DNA of 64,000 nt from the NCBI RefSeq assembly GCF_002148795.1, contig NZ_MPOB01000001.1, positions 1 through 64,000 of the forward strand, written 5' to 3'. The number at the start of each line of letters is the position of its first letter. The stretch's first letter is position 1. Positions 9,655-14,986 of this stretch are shown piece by piece. Both the position numbers and the translations under genes were made by a program. The DNA is from Oceanibaculum nanhaiense. GTDB taxonomy: Bacteria > Pseudomonadota > Alphaproteobacteria > Oceanibaculales > Oceanibaculaceae. The notes beneath the pieces were generated by a model. It was not told where the DNA came from. It searched no databases and saw only the letters and a program-made list of their open reading frames with translations.

Positions 9655-10401
9655 TCACGTCGAAAGAAACCGCCGTTCCTCGCCTGCCAGCACCAGGCAG
9701 GTGAGGCGGCCGGTCATGAAGGCGCCGGTGTCGATGCCGATGCGGTTCGCGCGTTCCTCCGGCGTCCAGGCAACGGTATGGCCATGCACCACTACAGCAC
9801 CGTGATCGGCCTCTGACGAGAGGAACAGGTCGCGCACCCAGAGCAGCGTCTCCGCCGTCTGCTCCGCAAGTGCCACGCCGGGGCGGATGCCGGCATGCAC
9901 GAACAGATAGCCGCCCTCGACGTGGTGCAGGCGCAGCCCCTCGTAGAAGCGCCGGTGCGCCGCCGGCAGTGCCTCGGCCAGCAGCCGGCTCATCCGCTGC
10001 CAGCCATCCGCCAGCCCGAGATAGCGTGACGGTTCGATGCCGTAGGAACGCAGGGTGGCATCGCCGCCATTGCCGATCCACAGCCGCGCGACATCCTCCG
10101 GTTCTTCCAGGAAGCGCAGCAGCAACTCCTCGTGATTGCCCTTCAGCGTGACCAGTTCCGCACCCGGCAGCGGGTCTTCCAGCAACATATCGATCACGTG
10201 CCGCGACCAGTCGCCGCGATCCACATAATCGCCCAGCGTAACCAGCACCGTGCGGCGTTCCGGCGCGCGCGCCGCATCCTTGCGGATTGTCTCCAGCAGA
10301 TCGGACAGCAGATCGGCCCGTCCGTGAATGTCGCCGATGGCATAGACCCGCGTATCCTCAGGAACCGTGGCCGGCACCGGGAGGGCGTCGCGGGCGGTCA
10401 T
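9655..10401 (-). CDS. PPP-family metallophosphatase coupled to the Wzc-type kinase
   Basis: 248-residue soluble phosphoprotein phosphatase of the bacterial PPP type. All diagnostic metal-binding motifs are present: GDIHGR (about 23-28), GDYVDRG (57-63), GNHE (88-91), then VHAGIRPG and HGHT in the C-terminal half. The start codon lies 3 bases after the stop of the upstream Wzc-type kinase gene, so translation is probably coupled. In many exopolysaccharide operons the kinase is paired with a low-molecular-weight tyrosine phosphatase (Wzb) or a PHP phosphatase. I infer that this PPP enzyme fills that place and dephosphorylates the kinase or another export component. A free-standing role such as nucleotide hydrolysis is possible. 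Confidence 0.9.
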   Translation of the reverse strand: MTARDALPVPATVPEDTRVYAIGDIHGRADLLSDLLETIRKDAARAPERRTVLVTLGDYVDRGDWSRHVIDMLLEDPLPGAELVTLKGNHEELLLRFLEEPEDVARLWIGNGGDATLRSYGIEPSRYLGLADGWQRMSRLLAEALPAAHRRFYEGLRLHHVEGGYLFVHAGIRPGVALAEQTAETLLWVRDLFLSSEADHGAVVVHGHTVAWTPEERANRIGIDTGAFMTGRLTCLVLAGEERRFLST

Positions 10402-10404
10402 GGC

Positions 10405-12663
10405 TCAATCGGCGCCGGCCGTCAGCCGGCGGGGGGCGGCACCGCGTTCCAGCCGAACATGGCCGGAGGCGAAGGGGACGCTTGCCGTGTCCGCGATCCG
10501 CTTCGGATCGGCGCGGTTCAGCACCGTGCCGGCCAGCGCCGCGCCGGCGCCTTCCAGGCTGGCGAGACCGGCAAGGGCCGCCGCTCGTTTCGTCTTGCCG
10601 GCAGCCACCACATGGACCGTCTGGTCGGCATGGCGCGCCAGCAGCAGCGCATCGGCGGCCGGCAGCACGGCGGAACTGTCGATCACCACCAGATCGAAGC
10701 CGCTGGAGGCCGCCGCCATCAGGTCCCGCGCGACCGGGCGGGCAAGCAGGGCCGACGGGTCTTCCAGCCGGGCTCCGGCCGGGATGACATACAGCCCGTG
10801 GGCGAGATGAAACTCCGTGACCTCGGCAAGATCGGCCTCACCGCCCAGATAGTCGGACAGGCCGCGCGCATTCGGCACGCCCAGCGCCTCATGCAGGCCC
10901 GGATCGCGCAGATCGGCATCGATCAGCAGCACCCGCGCGCCGCCCTTGGCGGCCAGGGTCGCGAGGCCCAGCGCTACAGCGCTCTTACCCTCGCCCGGCA
11001 GGGAGGAGGTGACCAGCACGCTGCGCCCGGCCGTGATGTTCTGCGCCTCGCCGGCCAGCGCCAGCGTGGTGCGCAGGCGGCGCAGCGCCTCGGCATAAGG
11101 ATCGTCCGCCTGTTCCAGCGCCAGTTCGTGCGGCGCCTGCCCGGCCAGCTGCCGCTTGCGCAGCGCCGGCAGCACCGCCAGCACCGGCAGGCCGGTTTCC
11201 GCCTCCAGCGCCTCCGCCCGGTCGAAATACCCGCCGCGACGGCCGGCAAGCCCGGCAGCCAGCAGCCCGGCGGCCAAAGCCACCGCTGCCGCCAGCAGCC
11301 AGCTGCCCCAGCCCGTCGCCGGTTCCGCCTGGCGTGGCAGGGTGGCGGCCGACACCAGTCGCGCATCGAAGCCCTGCTGGGCGCGCTGCGTCAGTTCGCT
11401 TTCATTGGCCCGGGTCAGCACCGCCTCATAGAGCTGGGTACGGGTGCGCAACTCCTCCTCCAGGGCACGGATGGCCGCTTCCGCCTCATTCTGGCCTTCG
11501 ACCAGCGCGGTCAGCCGCTCGACCTCAAGCTGCAGCGCGCGCTCACGCACGTGCGCCACCTCGGCCTCATTCTCCAGGCTGGCAACCACCTTGCGCACTT
11601 CCTGCGCGATGGTGCCGCGCAGTTCTTCCAGCTCCGCCTGCGCCTCCCTGAAGCGCGGATGCTCCTCGCGGTACTGGGTGCGCAGCTCGGCAATGCGGCG
11701 CTGGATCACCGCTTCCTGCAGGCGCAATTCGCGCACCAGCTCGGTGTTCAGCACGATGGTCGCACTGTCGATGGCGCCGGGCCGGTCGAGCAGGCGGCGC
11801 ACCTGCTGGGCGCGGGCCTCCGCCTCGGTGCGCTGTGCCACGGCAGCGACCAGCTGGGTGCTGACCTGGCCAAGCTGGTCGCGTTGCAGAGAGCCATCGC
11901 CAACCTCGACCACGCCGGAGCGGCGGCGATATTCCTCAAGATTTCGGGCGCTTTCCAGCACGTCGGCACGCAGGGAGTCCAGTTTCTGGCTGAGCCAGCG
12001 CCCGGCCCGTTCGGCGGCGCTGTCGCGGCGGGTCAACCGGCCGTCGAGATAGAGCTGCGCCGTCAGATTCGCTGCACGCGCCGCCAGCGCCGGATCGGCA
12101 GCGGTGAAGCCCACCGTCAGTAGCCGGGCGCCATCGGCCGGCGTGACGTTCAGCCGGTCGAGATAGGCGTCGGTCGCACGGTCCTGCGGATCGGAGGAAT
12201 CGGTCGTGGACGCTGCCGGGTCCATCAGCCCGGCCAGGGCCTGACGCACCACCGCGATCGCCTGGTCGGCCCATCGCAGCGGCAAGGCGCGCCCGCCCTC
12301 CAGAAGTGCCGGATTATTGGCCAGCCCCAGCTCCTGCACGGCCTGGCCGGCAAGCGCGCGGGAGCGCAGCAGCCCCGCCTCGGTCAGCAGGACGGTGCGG
12401 TCGACACTGCCCGCGCCGCTCTGCGTACCGTCACGCGGCTCCAGCACCAGCACCGCCTCGGCACGATAGCGCGCCGGCTGGGTCAGGATAAAGCCGGCCG
12501 CCAGCGCGAACACCGCCAGCGTCACGCCGATCAGCAGCCCCTTGCGCCGGCCGATTGCCGCGGCAAAACCAGCTTGCGCGGGCGCCGGCCCGGCCCGGCC
12601 CATGCCATTCGAAACAACTGCCGATGAGACAGGCCGCGCCCTGTAGGGGGTCAGTTCCGTCAT
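10405..12663 (-). CDS. Wzc-type polysaccharide co-polymerase / tyrosine-kinase-like protein
   Basis: 752-residue inner-membrane protein controlling chain length and export of an exopolysaccharide. Order: a short cytoplasmic N-terminus; a transmembrane segment after GRRKGLLIGVT (about residues 38-60); a large periplasmic coiled-coil region; a second membrane segment before GRRGGYFDR; and a cytoplasmic BY-kinase domain. That domain has Walker A SLPGEGKSAV (about residues 551-560), Walker A-prime LLIDADLRDPGLH and Walker B DLVVIDSS. The last 70 or so residues contain no tyrosine, so the usual C-terminal autophosphorylation cluster is missing. The start at 12663 (MTELTPYRARP) lies 25 bases after the Wza stop; the frame is open 38 codons upstream, but only as antisense of wza. 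It is middle gene of a Wza-Wzc-phosphatase operon. Confidence 0.92.
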   Translation of the reverse strand: MTELTPYRARPVSSAVVSNGMGRAGPAPAQAGFAAAIGRRKGLLIGVTLAVFALAAGFILTQPARYRAEAVLVLEPRDGTQSGAGSVDRTVLLTEAGLLRSRALAGQAVQELGLANNPALLEGGRALPLRWADQAIAVVRQALAGLMDPAASTTDSSDPQDRATDAYLDRLNVTPADGARLLTVGFTAADPALAARAANLTAQLYLDGRLTRRDSAAERAGRWLSQKLDSLRADVLESARNLEEYRRRSGVVEVGDGSLQRDQLGQVSTQLVAAVAQRTEAEARAQQVRRLLDRPGAIDSATIVLNTELVRELRLQEAVIQRRIAELRTQYREEHPRFREAQAELEELRGTIAQEVRKVVASLENEAEVAHVRERALQLEVERLTALVEGQNEAEAAIRALEEELRTRTQLYEAVLTRANESELTQRAQQGFDARLVSAATLPRQAEPATGWGSWLLAAAVALAAGLLAAGLAGRRGGYFDRAEALEAETGLPVLAVLPALRKRQLAGQAPHELALEQADDPYAEALRRLRTTLALAGEAQNITAGRSVLVTSSLPGEGKSAVALGLATLAAKGGARVLLIDADLRDPGLHEALGVPNARGLSDYLGGEADLAEVTEFHLAHGLYVIPAGARLEDPSALLARPVARDLMAAASSGFDLVVIDSSAVLPAADALLLARHADQTVHVVAAGKTKRAAALAGLASLEGAGAALAGTVLNRADPKRIADTASVPFASGHVRLERGAAPRRLTAGAD

Positions 12664-12688
12664 GCCCGCTTTCCCCCTTCTCTCGTGT

Positions 12689-13288
12689 CTAACGCGCCGG
12701 CCGGCTGATTTCGATGACATCGCCGGGCAGCACCGTCGTGTCCGGACGCCCGGCAATCTCCCGCCGGCCTTCGGCACCGTCGCGCAGGATCGTCACCGCC
12801 CGAACGGGATCGTCTCCCCGATAGCCGCCGGCCAGCGCCACGGCGCGGCGCACGTCGAGCGCCTGCAGATAGCCATAGCGGCCCGGCCTCTCGACACTGC
12901 CCAGAACGAAGACAGGCCGGTAGCGCACGACCTCCACGGCCACTTTCGGATCGACCAGATAGCGGGCATCAAGGGTCCCGGCGATGGCGGTGCGCAGATC
13001 GCCCGCGGTGCTTCCGGCGGCCTGCACGGCCCCCAGCAGCGGCATGACGATGCGCCCTTCGGCGTCCAGCTCGGCCTCGGTCGTCAGGTCGGGCTGGCCC
13101 CAGACGGTCACCCGCACGCGATCACCCGGCGCCAGTGTATAATCGGCGAGGCTGGCCACAGGCTCAGGCACAGCTTCCGGGGCGTTTTCCGGCGCGGCGG
13201 CACAGCCCGCCAGAACCGCCATGAGCAGGGGCGCCACCGCCCACGCCCTCATCGCGGCCGCAGCGCTTTCGAATATGTTGCGTTTCAT
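12689..13288 (-). CDS. Wza-type polysaccharide export lipoprotein
   Basis: 199 residues. The signal sequence ends in a lipobox (VLAGC, about residues 25-29), so the protein is probably an outer-membrane lipoprotein. The polysaccharide-export (PES/SLBB) domains follow: ADYTLAPGDRVRVTVWGQPDLTTE, then LRTAIAGTLDARYLVDPKVAVEV, then the SLBB part FVLGSVERPGRYGY. It is shorter than E. coli Wza (about 380 residues) and fits the short OPX class with a single SLBB region. I start at 13288 (MKRNIFES); the upstream extension to 13441 lacks any family resemblance. It is first gene of the operon with the Wzc-type kinase. Confidence 0.92.
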   Translation of the reverse strand: MKRNIFESAAAAMRAWAVAPLLMAVLAGCAAAPENAPEAVPEPVASLADYTLAPGDRVRVTVWGQPDLTTEAELDAEGRIVMPLLGAVQAAGSTAGDLRTAIAGTLDARYLVDPKVAVEVVRYRPVFVLGSVERPGRYGYLQALDVRRAVALAGGYRGDDPVRAVTILRDGAEGRREIAGRPDTTVLPGDVIEISRPAR

Positions 13289-13307
13289 CGGACGCCCACC
13301 CCAACCA

Positions 13308-13436
13308 ATGCCCGGAATGACGGCATCATATCGCATTCGGCCGGTCAAGATGGAGGTTTGATGCGAAACCGGATCGCCGCATCGACTATCCATCTGGAAT
13401 CCACGGCAGAATGACAGAATTGTGATGCCCGGAATG
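13308..13436. repeat. Pair of 12-base direct repeats
   Basis: ATGCCCGGAATG occurs at 13308-13319 and again, identically, at 13425-13436. The 117-base period is not an integral number of helical turns by a large margin (about 11.1). The copies flank the expected promoter area of wza. They may be binding sites or chance. Confidence 0.5.
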
Positions 13437-13440
13437 CGCA

Positions 13441-13462
13441 TTTTATCTGGATATAGATAAAA
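13441..13462. promoter_or_regulatory. Perfect 8-6-8 inverted repeat, candidate operator
   Basis: TTTTATCT (13441-13448) and AGATAAAA (13455-13462) are perfect inverted copies around GGATAT. It lies about 150 bases upstream of wza and 270 upstream of the divergent gene, in AT-rich DNA, and is not followed by a T tract that would make it a terminator. A dimeric regulator site is the most natural reading. Confidence 0.5.
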
Positions 13463-13735
13463 TTATATGTAATTATGTTGCCTTTCATTCTTCGCGGAAT
13501 GCAAGAGAAACACTGATTTAATGATCGAACTTTGATAAAAGAGCTGCATATCGATAGAAGTTCCACCGCGAACCGTCGCGCAAGGGACCCGGTTCGAACC
13601 GGCCATGCCAAATCGCCGTCTTGCGATGGTGTGGACGGTACCCAAAAGAAAAATGCGCACATCAGAATGGCGCACCTACAGAGTGGCGCACCGGCGCCTA
13701 ACGGCAAATACGATCCGCAAATCGGGGAGCGGTAA

Positions 13736-14986
13736 ATGGCTATTTTGACGCAAGCAGCACAGGGCGGGCAGACCACCCGAGGTCCCAGCCAGGAATATAT
13801 GCTGCTGGACTATCTGCAGCGCCTGAGCCGCAACAATCTGGAAGACCGCACGGCCGTGCATCTGCACCTGTCGCGTCTGCGGGCGAACAACCGGCGCGAC
13901 CATCACATCCGCATCGCCGCCGCGACCTTCGAGGGCATCGTCCAGAATTACGAGGGCCAGACCTTCATCCTGTCGAATTCCGACATCTTCTTCATCTGCA
14001 AGGGCGCCACGCTGCAGGACATCGACACCGCCGTCATGAAGGTGCGGTTCCTGTTCAGCGAGGACCCGCTGGCCCAGGGCGACGAGGAAGAGGACATCCA
14101 CAAATTCTGCACCTGGTACAATATGGAGAGCCAGTACGATGACGTGCTGGAAGTCTCCAAGAAAATGCACCGGGAGCGCGAGCGCCAGGCCCGCCTGACC
14201 GCCACCGCCGACCCCAAGGCCGCCGCCAAGCGCAGCGGCCGCCGGCCAATCGAGCCGGAGCAGCTGGGCAAGCTGGAGCAGTTCCTGGCGCGCGCCGACA
14301 TGTCGAACCTGATGCGCCGGCAGTCGATCTGCGCGATCACGCCAGGCATGCCGCCGCAGCCGGTGTTCCAGGAACTCTACATCTCGATCCCCGACCTGCA
14401 GAACACGATGCTGCCGGAATATGATATCGGCGCCAATCCGTGGCTGTTCCAGCATCTGACGCAGACGTTGGACAGCCGCATGCTGTCGCTGCTGATGCGC
14501 AACGACGACAGCTCGATCGCCAGCTCCTTCTCGATCAACATGAATGTTTCGACGGTGCTGTCGCCGCAGTTCCTGAATTTCGATTCCAGCCTGAAAGCCG
14601 TGGCGCGCGGCACCGTGGTGGTGGAATTCCAGAAGATCGATATTTTCGGCGATATGGGCGCCTATGTCTTCGCCCGCGACTTCCTGCGCGAGCGCGGCTA
14701 CCGCATCTGCCTGGACGGGCTGAACCATCTGACCATCCAGTTCATCGACCGCGAGCGGCTGGGCCTCGATCTGCTGAAGGTGATCTGGTCGCCGGACATG
14801 GCGGAAGATAATTCGGGCAACCGCCTGACCGAGCTGAAGCAGCATGTCGATCGCTGCGGCCGTGCCCGCATCATCCTGTGCCGCTGCGACAGCGACGAGG
14901 CAGTGCGCTTCGGCCAGTCGCTCGGCCTGACCATGTTCCAGGGCCGCCATGTGGACAAGATGCTGGCCGAGGGGCGGCGCATCTGA
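13736..14986 (+). CDS. Degenerate GGDEF-EAL-like protein, probably catalytically inactive
   Basis: 416-residue soluble protein. The C-terminal half (about 190-410) follows the layout of an EAL phosphodiesterase domain. SFSINMNVSTVLSPQFL corresponds to the NLS segment, VVEFQK to the ExT strand, LRERGYRICLDGLN to the DDFG segment, and SLGLTMFQGRHVDK to the QGY segment near the C-terminus. The second aspartate of DDFG is glycine, and the EGVE glutamates are replaced (LCRCDSDE), so c-di-GMP hydrolysis is unlikely. About 40-110 faintly resembles a worn GGDEF domain (SNSDIFFICKG). A charged linker lies at 145-170. The start has GGGGAG six bases upstream. It is divergent from wza-wzc, so a role as a c-di-GMP sensor or scaffold for exopolysaccharide control is an attractive inference. 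Confidence 0.8.
   Translation: MAILTQAAQGGQTTRGPSQEYMLLDYLQRLSRNNLEDRTAVHLHLSRLRANNRRDHHIRIAAATFEGIVQNYEGQTFILSNSDIFFICKGATLQDIDTAVMKVRFLFSEDPLAQGDEEEDIHKFCTWYNMESQYDDVLEVSKKMHRERERQARLTATADPKAAAKRSGRRPIEPEQLGKLEQFLARADMSNLMRRQSICAITPGMPPQPVFQELYISIPDLQNTMLPEYDIGANPWLFQHLTQTLDSRMLSLLMRNDDSSIASSFSINMNVSTVLSPQFLNFDSSLKAVARGTVVVEFQKIDIFGDMGAYVFARDFLRERGYRICLDGLNHLTIQFIDRERLGLDLLKVIWSPDMAEDNSGNRLTELKQHVDRCGRARIILCRCDSDEAVRFGQSLGLTMFQGRHVDKMLAEGRRI

Follow-up and report, generated by a model that had tools for sequence, protein, structure and literature searches.

A Wzc-like protein without a tyrosine tail is encoded beside an intact PPP-family phosphatase in a predicted polysaccharide export operon of Oceanibaculum nanhaiense

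In Escherichia coli, the export lipoprotein Wza, the tyrosine-tailed co-polymerase and kinase Wzc and the phosphatase Wzb, which has the low-molecular-weight (LMW) tyrosine phosphatase fold, are encoded together. The capsule locus of Caulobacter crescentus encodes the Wzc protein CCNA_00163, the Wza protein CCNA_00168 and the “Wzb-like metallophosphatase” CCNA_00167, and deletion of CCNA_00167 abolishes the capsule (PMC4241560). In Rhizobium leguminosarum, the Pss-I region encodes the PPP-family phosphatase PssZ, and the pssZ mutant makes no exopolysaccharide (EPS) (PMC6071215, PMC6628131). Judging from both phenotypes, such phosphatases are therefore needed for capsule or EPS formation. Here we analyse a wza-like, a wzc-like and a PPP-family phosphatase gene of Oceanibaculum nanhaiense, all located on the minus strand at positions 9655-13288 of the window, by which we mean the whole stretch of DNA that was analysed, i.e. 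the first 64,000 nucleotides of contig NZ_MPOB01000001.1. An earlier reading of the letters alone (the original prediction) had presented the pairing of a Wzc-type kinase with a PPP phosphatase as new, which it is not in view of the published work on Caulobacter and Rhizobium. The new point is that in Oceanibaculum a kinase without a tyrosine tail stands beside an intact PPP phosphatase.

The arrangement of the three genes as one operon with intergenic gaps of 25 and 3 bases, given already in the original prediction, agrees with the coordinates and with the Pfam and NCBIfam profiles (Table 1). The Wza-like protein matches Poly_export (PF02563, E 3e-23) and, weakly, SLBB in the profile search, and its domains and length fit the Class 3 outer membrane polysaccharide export (OPX) proteins, a class that has no helix spanning the outer membrane and pairs with a beta-barrel porin there. 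In the Wzc-like protein a Wzz-like N-terminus is fused to a C-terminus of the bacterial tyrosine kinase (BY-kinase) type; TIGR01005 is matched with E 7e-78, which lies under the cut-off of that model, and the best sequence matches in the PDB are Wzc and Etk of E. coli. Compared by family, motifs and position, the operon resembles Caulobacter CCNA_00162-00168, where Wzc-like, metallophosphatase and Wza-like genes likewise share one locus. However, the Caulobacter locus is a full cluster with a polymerase, a sugar transferase and the BTLCP protein HvyA. On the same grounds the phosphatase resembles PssZ, which has PPP motifs and shares its EPS region with the Wzc-like PssP, but the first motif of PssZ is SDVHG and the EPS region is large. 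The three kinds of protein are the same as in E. coli Wza-Wzc-Wzb, whereas the fold of the phosphatase differs and the Wzc of Oceanibaculum is tail-less.

In the Wzc-like protein of the window, the last tyrosine is residue 625 of 752, and the C-terminal tyrosine cluster by which Wzc-type BY-kinases are recognised is absent. We compared the genome of the window (G000) with three other Oceanibaculum genomes (G001, G002 and G003) and counted zero to two tail tyrosines, namely none in G000 and G003, one in G001 (EDSAYVP) and two in G002 (RYAYAAP). The other Wzc proteins examined carry three to nine, usually four to nine, with three in the sister lineage G097, and a second set of 53 Wzc proteins has a median of seven tyrosines within the last 60 residues. 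A protein from Hyphomonadaceae (locus L214) appeared to be an exception to this pattern, its tyrosines (YSKYY) lying further upstream and being followed by a C-terminal extension. A frameshift concealing a tyrosine tail was ruled out, as the last 141 bases contain no TAT or TAC, whichever frame is read, and the four genomes agree. In a tree of 47 Wzc sequences calculated without the tails, the Oceanibaculum sequences alone have fewer than three tail tyrosines, and the loss of the tail is placed there as a single event, nested among tyrosine-tailed relatives and beside G097.

The Walker A, Walker A' and ExxRxxR motifs are present in the Wzc of G000, while the G003 orthologue has GEGR in place of GEGK in the P-loop, so that the Walker A lysine is replaced by arginine. 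A supposed loss of the Walker B motif (DSSA for DTPP) was dropped because variants of the DSPP or DAPP type are common in Alphaproteobacteria. Kinase-type domains without a tyrosine tail are likewise found in polysaccharide export in the BY pseudokinases EcpK of Myxococcus and HfsB of Caulobacter (PMC12004946). These, however, are stand-alone proteins without catalytic motifs, whereas the less reduced Oceanibaculum domain is fused to a co-polymerase and keeps Walker A, apart from its alteration in G003, and Walker A'. Read from its sequence, the Oceanibaculum Wzc is a degenerate BY-kinase that has probably lost its kinase activity. The missing tail tyrosines, together with the lost P-loop lysine in G003 and the intact phosphatase, make a simple cycle of phosphorylation and dephosphorylation of the Wzc tail unlikely in this operon. 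The simple kinase-phosphatase pair that had been proposed for it is thus not borne out.

The phosphatase, by comparison, is better conserved within the genus than the kinase. Amino acid identity among the Oceanibaculum species is 70-90% for PPP, 48-84% for Wzc, 53-75% for Wza and 89-98% for the divergently encoded EAL-like protein. The motifs GDIHG, GDYVDRG, GNHE and HGHT, which had been noticed from the start, are present together with VHAG. Across 17 relatives the metal ligands are invariant, and the phosphatase of the window has all its active-site residues, with GDxHG, GDxxDRG, GNHE/D and two further metal-binding histidines; G003 has the variant GDHVDRG, in which the catalytic residues are kept. 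An AlphaFold2 model (pLDDT 94) supports a calcineurin-like fold, with a Foldseek match to 1g5b at E 3e-13, and lambda phosphatase, Arabidopsis RLPH2, the phosphatase domain of PnkP and PP5 are among the solved structures closest to it. In its sequence, too, PPP matches relatives of known structure. The Oceanibaculum PPP is predicted to be an active metallophosphatase of the type found with capsule clusters in Alphaproteobacteria. Because RLPH2 combines the PPP fold with phosphotyrosine phosphatase activity (PMC12817480), the fold leaves the substrate undecided. A “different chemistry”, as originally stated, does not hold as a statement on the substrate, because PPP-fold phosphotyrosine phosphatases exist (RLPH2; 2z72). 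RLPH2 prefers phosphotyrosine, but at ~22-24% identity of the window phosphatase to RLPH2 and lambda phosphatase substrate specificity is not transferable. A Wzb-type phosphatase (PF01451, CX5R) was not found at the operon; the sole LMWPc match of the genome lies on contig C6.

Table 1 Features of the export operon and its divergent neighbour, in positions of the window
Feature	Positions	Strand	Basis or remark
wza-like gene, short Class 3-type OPX lipoprotein with Poly_export and SLBB, 199 aa	12689..13288	-	Profiles, lipobox LAGC; class suggested by length (PMC9603273)
wzc-like gene, polysaccharide co-polymerase with BY-kinase-type domain, 752 aa; Walker A (GEGKS), Walker A' (VLLIDADLRDP), EALRRLR	10405..12663	-	
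Wzc-like C-terminal tail, tyrosine-free	10405..10500	-	Last 141 bases free of TAT/TAC in all frames
PPP-family metallophosphatase, 248 aa, all metal ligands intact	9655..10401	-	PF00149 E 2.5e-16; model pLDDT 94; structure matches
Degenerate GGDEF-EAL protein, 416 aa, probable c-di-GMP receptor type (predicted), divergent from the operon	13736..14986	+	Conserved neighbour of PPP elsewhere
Intergenic region between operon and EAL-like gene, both promoters expected here	13289..13735	.	Sequence

A search of 387 alphaproteobacterial genomes showed that the association of PPP and Wzc is not confined to Oceanibaculum. The match lists hold the best 150 places each, and all counts of co-occurrence refer to the matches listed. 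Relatives of Wzc were found in 153 and relatives of PPP in 160 of the 387 genomes. Both genes are listed for 94 genomes, and in 44 of these, from 28 families, PPP lies at most 10 kb from wzc, compared with ~0.8 genomes expected by chance. A binomial figure overstates the significance since the genomes are related, but with 28 families chance is untenable as an explanation of the linkage. PPP stands beside Wzc in all four Oceanibaculum genomes, so the adjacency is not accidental. The recurrence that the original prediction had suggested looking for was found for the association, but only Oceanibaculum, G260 and G181 showed the immediate order with PPP directly after Wzc. At the other loci PPP is 0.6-8 kb off wzc, in varied orders and in either orientation. 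The neighbours at these loci include Wza, the BBP2 beta-barrel, Wzy_C, PF02397 sugar transferases, BTLCP, NTP_transf_5 and MatE. In two Caulobacterales loci (L214 and L219) PPP directly precedes the Wza-like gene, as in CCNA_00167-00168. On a plasmid of Azospirillum sp. TSH100 the genes of PPP and of a tyrosine autokinase with a tyrosine tail overlap, and a plasmid of Thalassobaculum sp. OXR-137 holds a further annotated example of the association. The sequence clusters c9 and c22 were antisense shadow reading frames and were ignored.

Wzb-family LMW phosphatases are encoded by 260 of the 387 genomes. Nevertheless, reading the best 150 LMW phosphatase matches by eye showed none that is 10 kb or less from a listed wzc, and the LMW phosphatase motif was not found in the 53 loci that hold both wzc and PPP, even in a looser form that was used because the stricter version missed the LMWPc of G000 serving as control. 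A Wzb encoded inside the same clusters was rejected on this basis.

The surroundings of the operon point to a reduced capsule or EPS export locus that would have lost its adjacent beta-barrel, polymerase and glycosyltransferase genes. The scanned flanks encode UbiD, GNAT, LysE and PmbA/TldD proteins on one side and the EAL-like protein, an alcohol dehydrogenase, MFS, IlvD and GntR proteins on the other. The statement that no glycosyltransferase, flippase or polymerase gene is nearby holds for these flanks, of which the left one measures only 9.6 kb as the window starts at the contig end. Locally the operon is thus a stand-alone module, as had been proposed, but it seems to derive by reduction from a larger capsule cluster. 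This is supported by the sister lineage G097 (L228), in which an EAL-like gene and BBP2, Wza and Wzc genes follow in the same order with a sugar transferase, a glycosyltransferase, an epimerase and Wzy alongside, and by the lack of BBP2 in three Oceanibaculum genomes: the BBP2_2 barrel was not found in G000, G002 and G003, other barrel families not having been searched. In G001, BBP2 occurs only at a second, tyrosine-tailed cluster with its own PPP. This second PPP (G001:C3, ~40.6-44.8 kb, L062) adjoins the BBP2 barrel and the tyrosine-tailed Wzc and is 44% identical to the PPP of the window. A separate EPS locus on contig C5 of G000 (~162.4-172.4 kb, L069) encodes a MatE flippase, a PF02397 sugar transferase, a Wzz protein, a second Poly_export protein, WecG and a Wzy_C-like protein. 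It could supply polymer to the exporter of the window or be independent of it.

The gene that diverges from the operon encodes a protein with an EAL-like C-terminal half, as seen by profile and structure, and its full model matches the GGDEF-EAL proteins PA0861, LapD and FimX. While the model supports the EAL fold, the catalytic motifs EAL, DDFG and EGVE are degenerate by reading of the sequence. The protein is probably a receptor of cyclic di-GMP (c-di-GMP) of the LapD/FimX-like type, as predicted from the model. Homologues lie divergently beside PPP in ~15 other loci, and ~14 other loci have an HD-GYP gene close to PPP. In ~12 loci (L148, L156, L168, L193 and others) a gene of the HD-GYP type (PAS and HD_5) is located directly upstream of PPP on the same strand. 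No sigma-70-type consensus was found in the intergenic region that separates the EAL-like gene from the operon, and the scan for promoters and terminators was uninformative.

From the observed gene content, conservation, tail loss, phosphatase site, folds and neighbourhood we infer a loss of kinase activity, a role for the phosphatase, a link to c-di-GMP and an exported polymer. We propose, with a probability of roughly one half, that the operon is a reduced export locus with a tail-less Wzc scaffold, in which PPP is kept for a target other than the tail and the EAL-like protein takes part in control. The exporter would span the periplasm through its Wza-like lipoprotein and Wzc-like co-polymerase. 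The kinase domain would have become a tail-less scaffold that probably does not autophosphorylate, and a putative polymer would be exported by Wza and Wzc without a tail phosphorylation cycle. The target of PPP would be a different protein that belongs to the polysaccharide machinery or helps to regulate it, dephosphorylated on serine, threonine or tyrosine, and control would probably involve the divergently encoded degenerate GGDEF-EAL protein too.

Several points weigh against this proposal. No PPP adjoins the cluster of G097, therefore the Oceanibaculum operon may have acquired its PPP secondarily. G000, G001 and G002 retain Walker A and Walker A' unchanged, so ATP hydrolysis by the Wzc domain, or phosphorylation of residues at other sites, may persist. 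Where the cluster has a tyrosine-tailed Wzc, it could well be PPP that dephosphorylates this Wzc. The published work on PssZ (PMC6071215, PMC6628131) and CCNA_00167 (PMC4241560) reports no substrate of the phosphatase. The connection with c-di-GMP, drawn from neighbourhood and fold only, is a possible one.

If PPP were the equivalent of Wzb, i.e. the phosphotyrosine phosphatase of Wzc, it would act in Oceanibaculum on other phosphosites of Wzc and form a true kinase-phosphatase pair with it. The strong linkage of PPP to wzc, its direct adjacency with a 3-base gap, the missing LMW phosphatases around wzc, the designation of CCNA_00167 as “Wzb-like” (PMC4241560) and the phosphotyrosine specificity possible among PPP relatives all agree with this. 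However, the tail on which Wzb-type phosphatases are known to act is absent and the P-loop lysine is gone in G003 while the phosphatase is still conserved, and many PPP genes lie in heptose or HD-GYP contexts without wzc in reach, so that we consider this explanation rather unlikely. The heptose contexts could instead indicate a small-molecule phosphatase acting on sugar phosphates or nucleotides in polysaccharide precursor metabolism and not on proteins. PPP is found near HldE in ~15 loci, sometimes with GmhA (SIS) and an HldD-like epimerase, i.e. with ADP-heptose synthesis (L133, L147, L155, L050 and others), the heptose genes being adjacent in some loci and a few kb away in others, and enzymes of the ApaH type belong to the PPP fold. 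In contrast, the best structure matches are lambda phosphatase and RLPH2, and GmhB, the heptose-bisphosphate phosphatase that would be expected, was matched in 10 of 12 genomes tested, in 4 of them above the curated cut-off. In most genomes there is therefore no gap to fill, and PPP as a stand-in for GmhB in heptose operons was rejected. TIGR00213 (GmhB) was unmatched in the whole genomes of G000 and G003, and G001 and G002 have a match. Altogether, a role in precursor metabolism is improbable.

The operon could also be a decaying remnant without function. The losses of tyrosine tail, beta-barrel partner and adjacent biosynthesis genes, the P-loop change in G003 and the fast divergence of Wza and Wzc, with 48-54% identity between the more distant species, would all fit with decay. 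Against this, four species keep intact, stop-free frames, the Wzc of G003 being split by a contig break only, and the motifs of PPP are invariant, which makes decay very unlikely.

Returning to the proposed reduced export locus with a retained phosphatase, Oceanibaculum represents a natural experiment: the Wzc tail, the substrate that would first come to mind, was lost while the phosphatase stayed intact. This argues against the tail as the sole target and points to others, for which the recurring EAL-like, HD-GYP and BTLCP neighbours are concrete candidates. We tentatively speculate, as a possibility that is more doubtful than the proposal for the operon itself, that alphaproteobacterial Wzc-type capsule clusters as a rule use PPP phosphatases in place of Wzb-type enzymes, and that the phosphatase of Oceanibaculum has outlived the kinase tail. 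Its essential target may then lie elsewhere, perhaps in a c-di-GMP circuit with the GGDEF-EAL protein, and capsule export would be under a phospho-control that bypasses the Wzc tail.

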